Source: a virus. From it: a stretch of DNA of 64,000 nucleotides. This document shows positions 25,477 through 50,744 of this stretch, piece after piece. How positions within the stretch are numbered: the first letter of the stretch is position 1; the number at the start of each line of letters is the position of its first letter. Made by a program: the position numbers and the translations under genes. The notes below the pieces were generated by a model. That model was not told the origin of the DNA, did not search any database, and was given only the letters and a program-made list of their open reading frames with translations. Where the stretch lies: positions 62,001 through 126,000 of the IMG/VR virus record IMGVR_UViG_3300044213_000107; one strand, written 5' to 3'.

Positions 25477-26595
25477 TCAATTATCGCCCATTAATTCGTA
25501 TAGTTCTGGCAAGTACTCTCGCCAATCCATACCGTGATAATTTCGTGTATGTTCCATGTATCTGTAAAATTTTTTTCTACATTGTAGATCAAATGCACTA
25601 TTATCTATATATGCTTTTAAAAAATGTAAATCATTGTCATTTAAATAGCTAGATATTTTATCTTTTTCTTGTTCTGTTAAAATTGAATATGTTAAATATG
25701 GTGGATAACTCACAAAACCTATTTCATTAGTTAAAGAGATGCCAAGATTTTTCATATATTCGATATATTCTACTACACCAAATAAATTTAATATACTGTG
25801 TGTTGGATGAGATGCTAGATTAAATCCTTGAGATTTAAAATCAATTAAATTTAGATTGAATTTATTCCAGTCAGCACCTGTTCGTATAAATTCAAATTTT
25901 TTCTCAATTGCTTCAAAACTAACAACTAAATTAATTTTATTAAATTTTTTTAATATCGGAATATCTTTATAACTTACTGTTCCGTTTGTGTTAATATTTA
26001 AACAAGTATCGGGCCCTGCTGAATCTAATACCTTTTCTAAAAAAATACTTAACTTATTCATATTATACAACGGCTCTCCACCTATTATATTAACAAATTT
26101 TAAATTTTTAAAATCATCATCAGTGTAATCATAAACTGCAGATGGCCAAACATCTAAATTTTCAATTGACACACTAATGTCGTAATTATAAATTGTATTC
26201 GGTAATTTTAAAGCTTCGGGTATCCAACTACTGCTAGATGACGGGCGGCAATATCTACATTGGATATTACAATATCTTCCTGTATCAACAGTTAATTGCA
26301 TAAAATCTTGTACATTTGATTCTGTAGAATATAAATCTATGTAATTGGCTAAACTTAATCGTTTGCTGAAATTTTTCCCAGGGTGTAGAATTTCAGCATT
26401 ACGACATGTAGTACAATATTTTTCTGGCCATTCACCTTGGTCAAACGACTGTTTTATTTCATTGTAAACAGGACTTTGCAGCATTTTAGTGCGACTTGTT
26501 ATATTGGGTATGGGTTGAAAGCAGCACGGACCTTGGAATTGAGCATCGTATGCGTGTTCGAAATACCAGCAACGTATAGGTTCTTTTTGATTCAT
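25477..26595 (-). CDS. Second radical SAM protein (twitch-type)
   Basis: 372 residues. C109-x3-C113-x2-C116 (GRYCNIQCRYCRP) at the same positions as in the first radical SAM protein of this window, then NIIGGEPLYN. Two extra Cys pairs (GPCCFQ at 24-25 and CTTC at 61-64) suggest an N-terminal auxiliary metal site. Clearly paralogous to the gene at 10331, but without a PP-loop partner; it is followed downstream by the rubrerythrin unit. The late element five bases upstream predicts a leaderless mRNA. Substrate unknown. Confidence 0.88.
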   Translation of the reverse strand: MNQKEPIRCWYFEHAYDAQFQGPCCFQPIPNITSRTKMLQSPVYNEIKQSFDQGEWPEKYCTTCRNAEILHPGKNFSKRLSLANYIDLYSTESNVQDFMQLTVDTGRYCNIQCRYCRPSSSSSWIPEALKLPNTIYNYDISVSIENLDVWPSAVYDYTDDDFKNLKFVNIIGGEPLYNMNKLSIFLEKVLDSAGPDTCLNINTNGTVSYKDIPILKKFNKINLVVSFEAIEKKFEFIRTGADWNKFNLNLIDFKSQGFNLASHPTHSILNLFGVVEYIEYMKNLGISLTNEIGFVSYPPYLTYSILTEQEKDKISSYLNDNDLHFLKAYIDNSAFDLQCRKKFYRYMEHTRNYHGMDWREYLPELYELMGDN

Positions 26596-26606: not shown

Positions 26607-26616
26607 GTATATAAGA

Positions 26617-26634
26617 AACCCGCCGAAGCGGGTT
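26617..26634 (-). terminator. Terminator of the tmRNA transcript
   Basis: AACCCGC-TTCG-GCGGGTT followed by TCTT; the stem closes the 3' end of the coding piece. Confidence 0.7.
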
Positions 26635-26951
26635 CTGGTTGTTTCTGTTACGAGGTATTTCCTACCCTAAGCAGTGTTTAGGCTGCTAAGGCAAATAGTG
26701 AGTCATTTGCATTTACTTGTTTTGCTTCTTTTACGGAGATCGCCTACCGAGCGCCATTATTCCTACTCCTGACCCTGTCGAACCTATTTCCGGCCCATCA
26801 AAAACATACTATCCTACACTCACTTACGATCGGCGTAACCAGCGGTAGTTAAAAACCTGCTCATGCGTTCCTATAGTATGCTTTTGGTGGACCGGGCGGG
26901 GAACCGCCCCCCGCGTCCAGAATCCATTTCCTAATAACAGTTTACGCTGTT
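26617..26951 (-). ncRNA. ssrA: Permuted (two-piece) tmRNA
   Basis: Order on the minus strand: acceptor piece, spacer, coding piece, the reverse of a normal ssrA. The acceptor piece (about 26951-26885) carries GGACGCGGG and ends CCGGTCCACCA. The coding piece starts GGGCCGG at 26796, which can pair 7 bp with CCGGTCC, and continues with GGTTCGACAGGG, a hallmark of the tmRNA 5' end. The tag frame (26710-26678) reads GCA AAT GAC ... GCA GCC TAA, giving ANDSLFALAA. The T-loop is unusual, G/C-rich, without a clean TTCRA. A spacer arm (26799-26812 with 26873-26886) can form a 14-bp stem, probably a processing substrate. Role: rescue of stalled ribosomes and tagging for ClpXP. Confidence 0.9.
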
Positions 26952-26957
26952 CTTTGT

Positions 26958-26986
26958 AGTATATATTTATTTCTAATAGGAGTCAA
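26958..26986 (-). promoter_or_regulatory. Sigma-70 promoter of the tmRNA
   Basis: TTGACT 26981-26986, N17, TATACT 26958-26963; predicted start near 26951. A TAAATA late element (26964-26969) overlaps, so both classes could fire. Confidence 0.7.
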
Positions 26987-33232: not shown

Positions 33233-35449
33233 TTATGCCATAACTGGTACAACTTCTGCTAGACCCGAATACTGAGTTCTCCGCATCCATTCTGCGGCAA
33301 CTCTGTTAGCATCGTGCTGACTATTGCCTATTCCACCAAATCTATATAACTCTTGGCCATTACCATTAAGTATCTTCCACGAACCAGTAAATGCACCTGA
33401 TGCTTGTTGTTGTCGAACATCTTGTGTTGATCCAGGTACACTCAACTCTCGACCAGTTTCAGAATCGCGAATACCAAACTGTGCACCGCTCAAATTGTTT
33501 GCTTGATAGCGTCTTAGTTGATCTAATGCCGCAGCATCATTTGATGAAAGGATCGATGCTACTCCTGGATTATTCTCCGACCTACGGAATATCTCATACC
33601 TTCTGGGAGCGGTTGCAGGAAGCTCTGGGAATAGATCAATGGTACCAGGGTCTGCATGTTGTCCTACGGCCTGCGGCTCACCTGCCGTGGCACGCCAAGG
33701 TGCTGGTGCAGTATCTCCGTTTTTGATATCGCCTGGTTGTCCACGGTGCTTTGTGGGATCGTGGCTGACCAATACTTGGAAATCAGGCCGGTATTCTCTG
33801 ACATATTGATCTTGTACTATTCCTGCATCTTTGCCATTGGCGGCATTAAAACGATATAGAACTTCAACATCGTATGGCTGATTAACATCACCAATTCGGC
33901 GATGTTGTCTAAACAAAATCCATTCACCTTCGGGATTACTACGACGACCGCCCACTACAATGCCTTCGCCGGGCTTGCGTAACTGGCGTTCCAGTTGTGC
34001 TTGTTTGATAAAACTACGCAATGCAGCCTTGGGCATTTCGCCGGCTACATATCGTGCAAAATACAGTATAGTATCTTTATTTTCTCCTTTGGGTGCTAGG
34101 AGTTTATACAGTTTCTTTAGATATTCTTCACGATGTAGTTCAGGTTTGACTGCAGCATCCAGGGCCACAACAAATCGCAACATGGTGTTTTCAATTTGAT
34201 CAAAGTTAACGTCCAACCAATCGCCACCAGCACTACGAAACTCAATGTAATTGCTTTTAACATTGATACTGGTGTATTTGTCCGTGGATGGAGCATGTAT
34301 GGCCCGGCTGGCAAATTCATCTAAGTGATTACGCATTTTGTCTAACAAACCTTGAGCTTCGTCGGGGTTTCCTTGCACACGGTTCTTTACTTTTTCTATG
34401 GCAGATTTACAATAATGATTGCTAGTACGACCGAACTTTTCTAGCACATATTGGTCGCCTAGCAATACTGCAAGTTTAACATAATCCAATTTGTAGCGTT
34501 CAAAGTCTGGAACACTGACATTGATGTGTAGACCGGTACTGTCGTTGGTGTAGCATCCATAACTTTTTGCCCAGGCTTTGACCTTTTTAAGTTGGTCAAT
34601 CATTTCATCAACTGGCATTGGGGGACTAACAAACTCCAGGCCCGATTCTGAAGATTCATCATCGGGACTTAGACTGCCATCAGGTTCAACCACATAGTGC
34701 CCGGGTTCGCGACGTCCACCGTGATAATTACGGCTGGCATTCACCGGCATGCCTATTGCTTTGCTAAAACTATTGGCTACTGCATCAATGTCTGCTTCGG
34801 CGTCATCATCGTTGTAACTGTTGGCCCAATAAGGCCACATCAAACCAAAATGGTTTTCAATGTCGGTCATGTAAGGATAGTTTTGCTGAAGCCAATTGCC
34901 CGAATCGTCAAAGAGATCTTGTTGTTGTTCTTCACGAAATTCATCATAAGCGTCATGTTTGGTACTGTCATTGTCTTCCCAGAGATGATTGGCATAGTCT
35001 AAGATATCGTTTTTACCTGGTGTGTAATCTTCGTCGTCGGCCTTGCCTAACCAGTCTTTGATTTGAGTTTCATCAATATTGTTGGCTACCCATTCCACAA
35101 AATAGTCAAACCCATCACGGTCCCACCGATTGTCGATTTGTTCATCGCAGTCTTCATAAAATTTTTGTTCCAATTCTTCTATCGCCCGCTGAACAGTTCG
35201 GGTACTATTGTAATCACCGTCATTGAAAAATTCGTATATGTCACTAAAACTGCGAGTTCTTGTGTCTTGGTCGTAGTCGGGTTCCTGTTCATTATCACCG
35301 TTGCTGCTTTTGTCAACTGGAACAATCATTTCAAACTCCATGCCAGCCCGGGCATCGATTTTCTTTGCCTGACTACGAAGGCTGGTGGGGCTCATGGCAA
35401 TTTCTGATAACTGCTGTTCTGATAATGGTTTAATGTCTGTGTAACGCAT
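33233..35449 (-). CDS. Large amidoligase-like protein (glutamine-synthetase fold, candidate)
   Basis: 738 residues. Middle part (about 230-470) carries GLEFVSPPMPVDEMIDQLKK, STGLHINVSVPD and SNYIEFRSAGGDWL, which match the putative amidoligase family (ATP-dependent peptide-bond formation). The N-terminus (MRYTDIKPLSEQQLSEIA) and acidic stretch resemble the other possibly head-packed proteins nearby. The C-terminal part has DVRQQ/PQAVGQ low-complexity linkers and a repeat-like domain (RRYEIFRRSENNPGVASI). Substrate unknown; could modify the cell wall or a protein. Late element 22 bases upstream with a small hairpin between. Confidence 0.65.
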   Translation of the reverse strand: MRYTDIKPLSEQQLSEIAMSPTSLRSQAKKIDARAGMEFEMIVPVDKSSNGDNEQEPDYDQDTRTRSFSDIYEFFNDGDYNSTRTVQRAIEELEQKFYEDCDEQIDNRWDRDGFDYFVEWVANNIDETQIKDWLGKADDEDYTPGKNDILDYANHLWEDNDSTKHDAYDEFREEQQQDLFDDSGNWLQQNYPYMTDIENHFGLMWPYWANSYNDDDAEADIDAVANSFSKAIGMPVNASRNYHGGRREPGHYVVEPDGSLSPDDESSESGLEFVSPPMPVDEMIDQLKKVKAWAKSYGCYTNDSTGLHINVSVPDFERYKLDYVKLAVLLGDQYVLEKFGRTSNHYCKSAIEKVKNRVQGNPDEAQGLLDKMRNHLDEFASRAIHAPSTDKYTSINVKSNYIEFRSAGGDWLDVNFDQIENTMLRFVVALDAAVKPELHREEYLKKLYKLLAPKGENKDTILYFARYVAGEMPKAALRSFIKQAQLERQLRKPGEGIVVGGRRSNPEGEWILFRQHRRIGDVNQPYDVEVLYRFNAANGKDAGIVQDQYVREYRPDFQVLVSHDPTKHRGQPGDIKNGDTAPAPWRATAGEPQAVGQHADPGTIDLFPELPATAPRRYEIFRRSENNPGVASILSSNDAAALDQLRRYQANNLSGAQFGIRDSETGRELSVPGSTQDVRQQQASGAFTGSWKILNGNGQELYRFGGIGNSQHDANRVAAEWMRRTQYSGLAEVVPVMA

Positions 35450-46962: not shown

Positions 46963-47471
46963 CCTGTAATCTGTAATGTATATCTATCTTCTATGCCAAT
47001 ATTAGCTGCTGCATGTGGTAAGTCATATGCCCATTCAACAATATCACCTGCCGACCAATTAACTATGCCTTCGCCATTGACTTCACTGTAATGTCCCGGT
47101 TGCCAGTCTTCTAAAAAAACTACAGCACGACGAATGCGATGTTCCTGTCCCTGCAAGTTAAATATTTTAACATACTTAACATATAAATCAGAATGAGTTG
47201 GTAATATTGTACCAGTCTTCATTCGATAGTAACTGGTACCAATATCTTTCCAACTATATTTTGTAAACAAGTCAACAAATCTATAGTTCCACACAGGTTG
47301 TGTGCTACGCATATCGCACATTTCTCCTGTAAACTGTCCAGTATAGCCTTGCTCCCTCCATCGATTAACACTCGCTTGGTCATTAAAAGATTCTCGATTG
47401 TAGTCTAATGTTTTAAAATCATCGGTCCAGAATGGTGTTATTTTAAATTTACTGTAAGCGGGTGTTGCCAT
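46953..47471 (-). CDS. 2-oxoglutarate/Fe(II) oxygenase-like, Asp/Asn beta-hydroxylase type
   Basis: 172 residues from ATG 47471. ILPTHSDLYVKYV gives HxD, and DLPHAAANIGIEDRYTLQITG the distal His and the 2OG-binding Arg. Likely hydroxylates a protein or small molecule. The start overlaps the dehydrogenase end by 23 bases. Confidence 0.78.
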   Translation of the reverse strand: MATPAYSKFKITPFWTDDFKTLDYNRESFNDQASVNRWREQGYTGQFTGEMCDMRSTQPVWNYRFVDLFTKYSWKDIGTSYYRMKTGTILPTHSDLYVKYVKIFNLQGQEHRIRRAVVFLEDWQPGHYSEVNGEGIVNWSAGDIVEWAYDLPHAAANIGIEDRYTLQITGWV

Positions 47472-48690
47472 AATGAATAACCTTAACTCCTTGAATGTTA
47501 GATGAATATGTGCGCCACGGATCAACAATAACGCTGCCTTCTGAGATTTCGCAGTACATACCTTGTTGTTCGACAACTCCAGCATAGCCATAAGTGATTT
47601 GTTTATTATGAGCTAACAAAACAACACCCTTTACTGGCTTGTCTGGCGCCGGATCGCCTGTTAATGGATCAATGTATGTAGGTTTGTAACCAAATTCTTG
47701 ACAATAATATCCAACTAATAAACTATAACTACCTTCTGTGTATGCTACATCGGGTTTGTATGCTTTACCGTGAATATAAATCGGTAGGTCGTATAACTTT
47801 GCTTGTTCTACCAATGACTGTGCCATTAATCGTGCTTGTTTTTCTCTGGCATGCATGATAGCATCAAACAAATCATAACCTAAATCAAGTTCTTGGGCGA
47901 GATATCTTAATGCAATATTATCGCGCGGATGACACGGACCTGCATCTCCAAGTCCTGCAGTCATATACTTAGGCCCCATGATCCGCATATTAGATTTAGC
48001 AAGTGCTGCAGTCACAACATCAACATTAATGTTTCCTTGTCGAATAGCAACGTCTTGAATCATGTTAGCTAGACCAATTTTGGCACTAATGAATGTATTA
48101 TAAAATACCTTGATACATTCAGCTTCGTCCCAGGTTCCAACTTCGTAGCGCGGATCATTTTCCATTATAGTTTGATAAAATTCAATTAGTTCCTGTGCAT
48201 CACCGGTTACGGATCCATCTTCGGTTCCAATAATAACCATTTCGGGATTGACCATATCCCACTCTACTGTGCCCATGGCAATCAAATATGGGTTATATAC
48301 AAATCGTGCGTTGGTGATATGATTTCGCAATTGTTTTCTTGTAGTACCAGGCAACACAGTTGAAATCAAAACAATCAATTGATCTGCAACAGCATATTGA
48401 TTAATATCTTGCAAAACTTGATTAACTAATGTATAATCGAAGTCTTTATTAGGTAAATGTGTAATTGGCTGTTCGCCACCATAAACAGGGTCGTGTGGTG
48501 TTTGGACTGCAATAAAGACTATGTCTTTGCCAACTACTGCTTCTTTTAAGGTATTAGCTATTTTGATTTTGTTGCTGGTGCGTGGATAAATATCATACCC
48601 AGTAACATCGTGTTTGCTAGCCATAACTTCGGCGCAGGCCAAACCTAATTTTCCAATTCCTATAAACCCTACGTTTTTTCTATTACTCAT
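47449..48690 (-). CDS. UDP-glucose/GDP-mannose dehydrogenase-family protein
   Basis: 413 residues. N-terminal Rossmann NAD site (VGFIGIGKLGLACAEVM), the middle EAECIKVFYNTFISAKIGLAN helix and the catalytic-Cys block GDAGPCHPRDNIAL; C-terminal domain with GKAYKPDVAYTEGS. Oxidises a nucleotide sugar to its uronic acid with two NAD. It may supply a sugar acid to the glycosyltransferases here. AAGGAC ribosome site lies inside the divergent plus-strand gene. Confidence 0.85.
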   Translation of the reverse strand: MSNRKNVGFIGIGKLGLACAEVMASKHDVTGYDIYPRTSNKIKIANTLKEAVVGKDIVFIAVQTPHDPVYGGEQPITHLPNKDFDYTLVNQVLQDINQYAVADQLIVLISTVLPGTTRKQLRNHITNARFVYNPYLIAMGTVEWDMVNPEMVIIGTEDGSVTGDAQELIEFYQTIMENDPRYEVGTWDEAECIKVFYNTFISAKIGLANMIQDVAIRQGNINVDVVTAALAKSNMRIMGPKYMTAGLGDAGPCHPRDNIALRYLAQELDLGYDLFDAIMHAREKQARLMAQSLVEQAKLYDLPIYIHGKAYKPDVAYTEGSYSLLVGYYCQEFGYKPTYIDPLTGDPAPDKPVKGVVLLAHNKQITYGYAGVVEQQGMYCEISEGSVIVDPWRTYSSNIQGVKVIHYGNTRLQ

Positions 48691-49823: not shown

Positions 49824-50744
49824 ATGAAAATTAGTGATGTATTGAATGATGATATTTCTCGCCGTGGTTTTTTGCGTGGACTAGCAGGAGCTGCCGCAGT
49901 AGGTGCAACCGGGGCTCATGCTACTGCAAAATCTATTGTGTATCAAGTAGTAGAACCCGGTGACACTGTTTATTCAATTGCACAGCAAAATGGCATGCGG
50001 CCCGAAGATTTATTTCGGTTAAACAATCTAAACAAGAACTCTAAATTGATTCCCGGACAAAAAATACGTGTGCCGGATACATCAAAAATGATTCCTGATC
50101 CTGCGGTACAAATTCCCACTGATGAATTAGGAAACTTTATTTCTAGCATTGATCAACACAAAGTTGATCAAATAATGCATAGATATGTTACAGCCAAAGA
50201 AAAAGAATCGATCATCCCACCTCCCGCAGACTCACACAAAAAATCAACTGCTAAATCTCACGAATACAAGCCAGTGACAAACAGTCCGTTTGAGTTGGTG
50301 TTGCGCAATGTTGCCATGCGTGCAGGAATTATTAAATCAGAATTGGCTGCATTTATGGGGCAATGTGCACACGAATCAGCAAAATTTACCACAGTAAAAG
50401 AACTAGACAGTGGCAGTAAATATGAAGGTCGTCGTGACATAGGAAACATTTATCCCGGGGATGGACAAAAATACAAAGGTCGTGGATTTATACAAATTAC
50501 CGGCAGATATAATTATACAGAAGCGTCCAAGGATCTGGGAATAGATCTAGTCAATCATCCCGAGCTAGCCGAAAGACCTGATGTAGCAGCTCGTGTGAGT
50601 ATTTGGTTCTGGCAAAAATTTGTTCAACCAAAGATTAAAAATTGGGCCGATAATCGTGCAGTTACTCGTGTAATCAATCCAGGATTACGTGGTGAAAAAA
50701 ATCGAGAAAAATATACTCAAAGTTTTAAAACAGCCGGGCTATAA
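49824..50744 (+). CDS. Tat-signal LysM plus GH19-type lysin
   Basis: 306 residues. Twin-arginine signal ISRRGFLRGLAGAAA (RR 13-14) followed by AHATA cleavage region. LysM domain about 38-86 (VVEPGDTVYSIAQQNGM; GQKIRVPD). C-terminal chitinase-class-I/GH19-like lysozyme (165-306): AFMGQCAHESAKF with the catalytic Glu, YKGRGFIQITGRYNY and DVAARVSIWFWQKF. It would cut peptidoglycan for lysis or entry. Export of a folded lysin by the Tat route is unusual; alternatively the signal anchors it until release. Confidence 0.85.
   Translation: MKISDVLNDDISRRGFLRGLAGAAAVGATGAHATAKSIVYQVVEPGDTVYSIAQQNGMRPEDLFRLNNLNKNSKLIPGQKIRVPDTSKMIPDPAVQIPTDELGNFISSIDQHKVDQIMHRYVTAKEKESIIPPPADSHKKSTAKSHEYKPVTNSPFELVLRNVAMRAGIIKSELAAFMGQCAHESAKFTTVKELDSGSKYEGRRDIGNIYPGDGQKYKGRGFIQITGRYNYTEASKDLGIDLVNHPELAERPDVAARVSIWFWQKFVQPKIKNWADNRAVTRVINPGLRGEKNREKYTQSFKTAGL

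Follow-up and report, generated by a model that had tools for sequence, protein, structure and literature searches.

The 64,000-nucleotide window analysed here (bases 62001-126000 of a 260,723-bp IMG/VR virus record) carries a complete circularly permuted (two-piece) tmRNA gene, in which the acceptor piece comes first and is followed by an 88-nt intervening segment (IVS) and the coding piece. Since two-piece tmRNA is already known in phage, this gene alone adds one member; comparison with its viral relatives points further. We consider it somewhat likelier than the contrary that the segment cut out of viral permuted tmRNAs works as a modular slot for cargo, passed among genes for different tmRNA types. 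In many viruses it would hold a complete small protein gene, with its Shine-Dalgarno (SD) site in the processing stem and its stop codon in the RNase P leader, and in the window a conserved structured RNA module.

The tmRNA gene of the window

The initial annotation had proposed a permuted two-piece tmRNA at this locus, which was borne out by covariance models scoring far above their cut-offs and each placing both pieces. RF04321 aligned over model positions 1-213 of 213 (125.1 bits, E 5e-24), beta_tmRNA (RF01850), the better full-length model of the two lineage types compared, gave 115 bits (E 3e-34, cut-off 84) and alpha_tmRNA (RF01849) gave 100.4 bits (cut-off 50). ARAGORN did not report the gene. 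Besides the two pieces, the locus shows a G3-U70 acceptor stem, a covarying P2 helix and an open tag frame with an A(L/V)AA-type degron end (ALAA) and a stop codon. The elements pointed out earlier without a strand, namely the acceptor end CCGGTCCACCA, GGGCCGG, GGTTCGACAGGG (about 26785-26774) and the tag frame ANDSLFALAA, all lie in acceptor-first order on the minus strand, and the promoter and terminator said to flank the gene were both located (Table 1). The terminator hairpin is listed by the prediction tool on the plus strand, and its minus-strand reading has a weaker T-rich tail (TTTCTTAT).

Table 1. Features of the tmRNA gene, in window coordinates
Feature	Position	Strand	Basis or remark
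Complete circularly permuted (two-piece) tmRNA gene	26986-26611	minus	from promoter to terminator end
Sigma-70-type promoter TTGACT-N17-TATACT	26958-26986	minus	10/12 consensus matches; consensus match only
Acceptor (3' tRNA-like) piece, encoded CCA at end	26885-26948	minus	RF04321 alignment; 5' boundary approximate
P2 helix, upstream strand GATTCTG	26918-26924	minus	7/7 pairs with 26771-26777
T-arm, 19 nt: 6-bp stem GCGGGG/CCCCGC, loop GGCGGTT	26896-26914	minus	
Acceptor stem, 3' strand CCGGTCC + ACCA (CCGGTCCACCA; G3-U70 alanine identity)	26885-26895	minus	7/7 pairs with 26790-26796
Intervening segment (IVS), 88 nt	26797-26884	minus	outer stem arms 26873-26884 and 26800-26812
Acceptor stem, 5' strand GGGCCGG	26790-26796	minus	putative RNase P cleavage just before 26796
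P2 helix, downstream strand CAGGGTC	26771-26777	minus	
Coding (mRNA-like) piece	26641-26796	minus	RF01850 match reaching 26612; 3' end approximate
Tag frame GCA AAT GAC TCA CTA TTT GCC TTA GCA GCC TAA (ANDSLFALAA-stop)	26678-26710	minus	aligned to beta_tmRNA tag region
Intrinsic terminator AACCCGC-TTCG-GCGGGTT + T-rich tail	26611-26634	minus	7-bp stem at 26617-26634

A spacer stem of 14 bp had also been claimed; the stem exists, with arms AAAGCATACTAT and ATAGTATGTTTTT, at a length of 12-13 bp. For the whole 144-nt hairpin the folding energy is -59 kcal/mol (z = -4.0), a value that none of 200 shuffles reached.

The tmRNA adjoins a gene for a radical SAM protein (25477-26595), and the window further encodes an ATP-dependent DNA ligase, a tail-fibre-like protein, an amidoligase (33233-35449), a UDP-glucose dehydrogenase (47449-48690) and a LysM/GH19 chitinase-type protein (49824-50744). 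The 25 tRNA genes of the record are distant from the locus, at about 195-204 kb, and no SmpB was found in the record. The 7-kb neighbourhood of the tmRNA showed no DNA similarity to cultured phages, and a search for relatives via the radical-SAM gene found none.

Pairing, T-arms and tags among viral relatives

A search with the DNA ligase led to 80 related viral loci, and 32 such large-contig records were scanned with RF04321. Matches over the cut-off were obtained in 13 of the 32, and a fourteenth contig, with a 382-nt IVS, gave 101.2 bits when the locus itself was scanned; relatives bearing a permuted tmRNA include contigs of up to 355 kb. A tag-pattern scan returned at least 120 viral stretches, and among the 120 matches listed 96 had both pieces by anchors alone, 90 of them non-redundant. 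All 90 have an acceptor stem with 7/7 pairs and G3-U70, of which the outer pairs are partly built in because anchoring demanded a 5' GG and a terminal CCACCA, while pairs 4-7 were free of that requirement. In the same set, 91.6% of P2 cells are paired, compared with 72.6% with shuffled partners, and a P2 double change from CTG/CAG to CAA/TTG sets subgroups apart (L104, L106, L107, L108). Tag frames are kept in the relatives. Thus the conservation of pairing in related phages, on which the initial annotation had made its proposal depend, is present, with compensatory changes in the acceptor and P2 pairing and covariation in the IVS stem as well. An exact-pattern search found no close relatives of the window's coding piece. 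Of 48 viral permuted tmRNA loci, 19 were missed by ARAGORN, which served as tmRNA finder in a survey of huge phages (PMC7162821), so published phage tmRNA counts are likely to be low.

The T-loop had been called abnormal, a description that does not hold, as GGCGGTT matches the alpha_tmRNA consensus loop GGCgGUA. A T-arm of 17 nt is found in 89 of the 90 non-redundant tmRNAs, with loops mostly of the classes TTCGANT, TGCRANT and GGCRGTN; the 19-nt arm of the window type was detected by pattern scan in 23 other viral contigs, 15 of which have a paired coding piece nearby, and RF04321 matched in all ten contigs of this set that were scanned. The window loop is thus of the alpha class with one added pair and not a product of decay. 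The tag is indeed beta-like, as had been noted, but with an alpha-type T-arm beside it the gene cannot be assigned to a betaproteobacterial lineage. Host assignment via the exact tag was rejected, as none of 84,980 genomes of bacteria and archaea has ANDSLFALAA. Genomes with ANDSxFALAA are mostly Burkholderiales, and of ten such loci checked with ARAGORN eight were standard one-piece tmRNAs and none was permuted.

Some viral permuted tmRNAs (L103, L105, L110, L111, L374, L237-L260) carry long tags of 21-34 residues instead of the usual 10, many with a basic KVSMGRGFRF core. A scan for patterns of this type found 26 viral stretches, most of which parsed as permuted tmRNAs. These extended tags had no match in cultured phages and were not found in 369 genomes from the class of a Burkholderiales genome.

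The intervening segment as a possible cargo slot

In 74 viral IVS, the two ends pair at a mean of -13.4 kcal/mol, compared with -7.6 kcal/mol for ends swapped between genes. Two viral tmRNAs that differ from the window gene in T-arm and tag, L182 and L214, carry an IVS close to that of the window (88.5% and 85.2% identity, respectively), and across the three sequences two base pairs of the IVS stem are fully compensated. The T-arm, IVS and coding halves of the window gene also differ in their nearest relatives. Taken together, these observations indicate modular exchange; judged by sequence comparison, the window IVS is a module common to different tmRNAs, and tmRNA parts (T-arm, IVS and tag) appear to have been recombined between phages. 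Near-identical 89-nt IVS also occur in L363, L372 and L377, which differ in P2 helices or tags, suggesting recombination at the IVS, and a repeated element, TAAATTTACTTTGGTATT, is present in at least two copies in the IVS of L101, L108, L111, L378 and L384, whose T-arms differ.

The window IVS holds no supported protein gene. Its candidate, a 14-residue peptide (MSRFLTTAGYADRK) that would be encoded in addition to the tmRNA function, is preceded by AGGA-N4-ATG, and its frame and start are kept in L182 and L214. The stop codon is lost in L182, however, the changes are mostly non-synonymous and conservation follows a structured region instead of codons, and we therefore regard such a peptide as unlikely.

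In the relatives, long IVS in our first sets contained ORFs with SD sites. In the unbiased tag set, an SD-led ORF of at least 18 codons that fills at least 80% of the remaining IVS was present in 15 of 89 IVS, against a mean of 1.1 and a maximum of 5 in 300 shuffles. A scan for an acceptor-CCA-AAGGA-ATG arrangement gave at least 120 viral matches, 116 of those listed having both tmRNA pieces; thus in at least 116 viral tmRNA matches an SD site and a start codon stand just after the CCA, and they mostly open real genes. Since the scan preselects for SD and ATG, the evidence lies in the length of the ORFs, in selection and in the unbiased count alone. A control in which GTA replaced ATG (99 matches) was discarded, as it was contaminated by GTATG.

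Taking the start codon as given, we compared the open length of 86 distinct ORFs with that in shuffled IVS; it was greater in 49 (p < 0.05). For ORFs that end within the IVS, the stop codon most often (43 cases) precedes the 5' G of the coding piece by one base, a position that is partly a default because it falls in a conserved TGAT leader. The ORFs lying wholly within the IVS number 54 distinct sequences in 34 families. Their pairwise dN/dS is mostly 0.02-0.3, with two pairs of 23-residue peptides above 1; over the three codon positions the differences number 147/109/275. One family is a thioredoxin (E 4e-21) and one ORF a CxxCxxCC domain protein (E 1e-6); others are small and hydrophobic and resemble small membrane proteins. 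The ORF sets are related by descent and most contigs are metagenomic; few flanking genes on the ORF-bearing contigs matched phage families. Loci with such nested genes include L436, L389, L424, L453, L451, L393, L456, L488, L381 and L391. An Rfam re-check of 12 loci, ten with ORFs and two with a window-type IVS, identified all 12 as permuted tmRNAs.

An SD site in the processing stem and a stop codon in the RNase P leader would mean that tmRNA maturation and cargo expression may be coupled. In a gene for ribosome-rescue RNA, the part that is discarded seems to serve viruses as a place to house structured RNA or protein genes. Such nested genes would form a new class and would include dozens of small phage proteins, and the maturation of tmRNA might be linked with the expression of genes. 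We found no report of protein genes in a tmRNA IVS in the literature searched, which spans few subscription journals; as far as that literature goes the cargo-slot IVS is new, and its protein-gene cargo is seen in relatives of the window and not in the window itself.

Proposed function and known systems

The window gene encodes a phage two-piece tmRNA (ssrA) that very probably works in trans-translation, a reading drawn from its sequence features. It would be transcribed as one RNA between the promoter and the terminator, in which the acceptor stem, continued by the IVS hairpin, would resemble the helix of a pre-tRNA. Cleavage by host RNase P before GGGCCGG and 3' trimming to the CCA could then release the IVS and leave two mature pieces held together by the acceptor stem and P2. 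G3-U70 would allow charging by the host alanyl-tRNA synthetase, and host SmpB and EF-Tu would deliver the charged RNA to ribosomes stalled on truncated mRNA, where ANDSLFALAA would be appended as a ClpXP-type degron. The phage may benefit from continued ribosome rescue while mRNAs are cut and the host ssrA gene is possibly lost.

Some features of the gene could be read differently. Its unusual 6-bp T-stem gives an acceptor-T helix of 13 bp instead of 12, which might weaken contacts with EF-Tu or SmpB, and the phage record is without SmpB. Inhibitory phage tmRNA-like RNAs have precedent (PMC11915505, PMC4131195), and the window RNA might likewise be a decoy whose folding and SmpB binding or charging serve to inhibit or retune host trans-translation, as proposed for DS6A. 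Unlike DS6A, however, the gene retains its resume and downstream regions and a tag frame that is complete and closes in a good degron, and relatives also keep their tag frames, making a decoy quite unlikely. The combination of an alpha-type T-arm and a beta-like tag could also fit a non-working recombinant; the mosaic of T-arm, IVS and coding halves with different nearest relatives, and a tag missing from all 84,980 cellular genomes, would suit a decaying copy or recombination remnant from a host that has lost its function. With all helices intact, the promoter and terminator kept and compensatory changes in relatives, we consider this very improbable.

There would be no phage gene at all if bacterial DNA had been misbinned as virus, and the record is metagenomic and matched no isolate. 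A 260-kb contig with a phage DNA ligase, a tail-fibre-like protein and 25 tRNA genes makes this hardly conceivable, as do the permuted tmRNAs on relatives of up to 355 kb and the short IVS of the Burkholderiales permuted tmRNAs inspected, 9 of 15 of which lack an encoded CCA.

Its location in a phage is not new, as Melnitz and about 50 other phages have already been described: 53 of 133 unique phage tmRNA structures were classed as two-piece, and 50 of the 53 belonged to phages of marine or aquatic origin (PMC9004378). To these the window adds one more, whose T-arm is a recurrent variant and whose structured IVS is shared with other viral tmRNAs. In single-sequence searches, Methylophilales phage Melnitz (MZ577097, PMC9004378) was the only phage found with a permuted tmRNA. 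Like the window, it has an encoded CCA, a GGCRGT-type T-loop and a long IVS (142 nt); unlike the window, it is alpha-type by Rfam (106.7 bits), has the tag ANDNYVPVDYALAA and is followed by a glutamine riboswitch. The Melnitz IVS also contains an unannotated, SD-led ORF of 54 codons (MFKWLSKTRLVV...; L002:1888-2052) within the SsrA feature, which the window does not have, and which exemplifies how standard annotation skips such IVS genes.

The betaproteobacterial permuted tmRNA (RF01850) shares with the window its piece order, P2 and an ANDxxFALAA tag. The window gene departs from it by an alpha-type loop capping a 6-bp T-stem, by an encoded CCA and by an 88-nt structured IVS; in the 15 Burkholderiales permuted tmRNAs mentioned above the IVS measures 9-46 nt. 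The alphaproteobacterial type (RF01849) has the same GGCgGUA class of T-loop, but the tag and 3' region of the window fit the beta model better. Mycobacteriophage DS6A likewise encodes a tmRNA-related RNA, which is tagless and comprises little beyond the tRNA-like domain; such RNAs inhibit tmRNA, whereas the window keeps the whole coding piece. Group I introns and homing endonuclease genes occur in tmRNA genes, one permuted tmRNA has a tRNA-Ala in its IVS and the IVS of another has a repeat (PMC11915505). These nested genes resemble the IVS ORFs in lying in tmRNA gene sequence that is absent from the mature RNA, but the IVS ORFs belong to many protein families and lie not in a self-splicing intron but in a segment released by tRNA-type processing.
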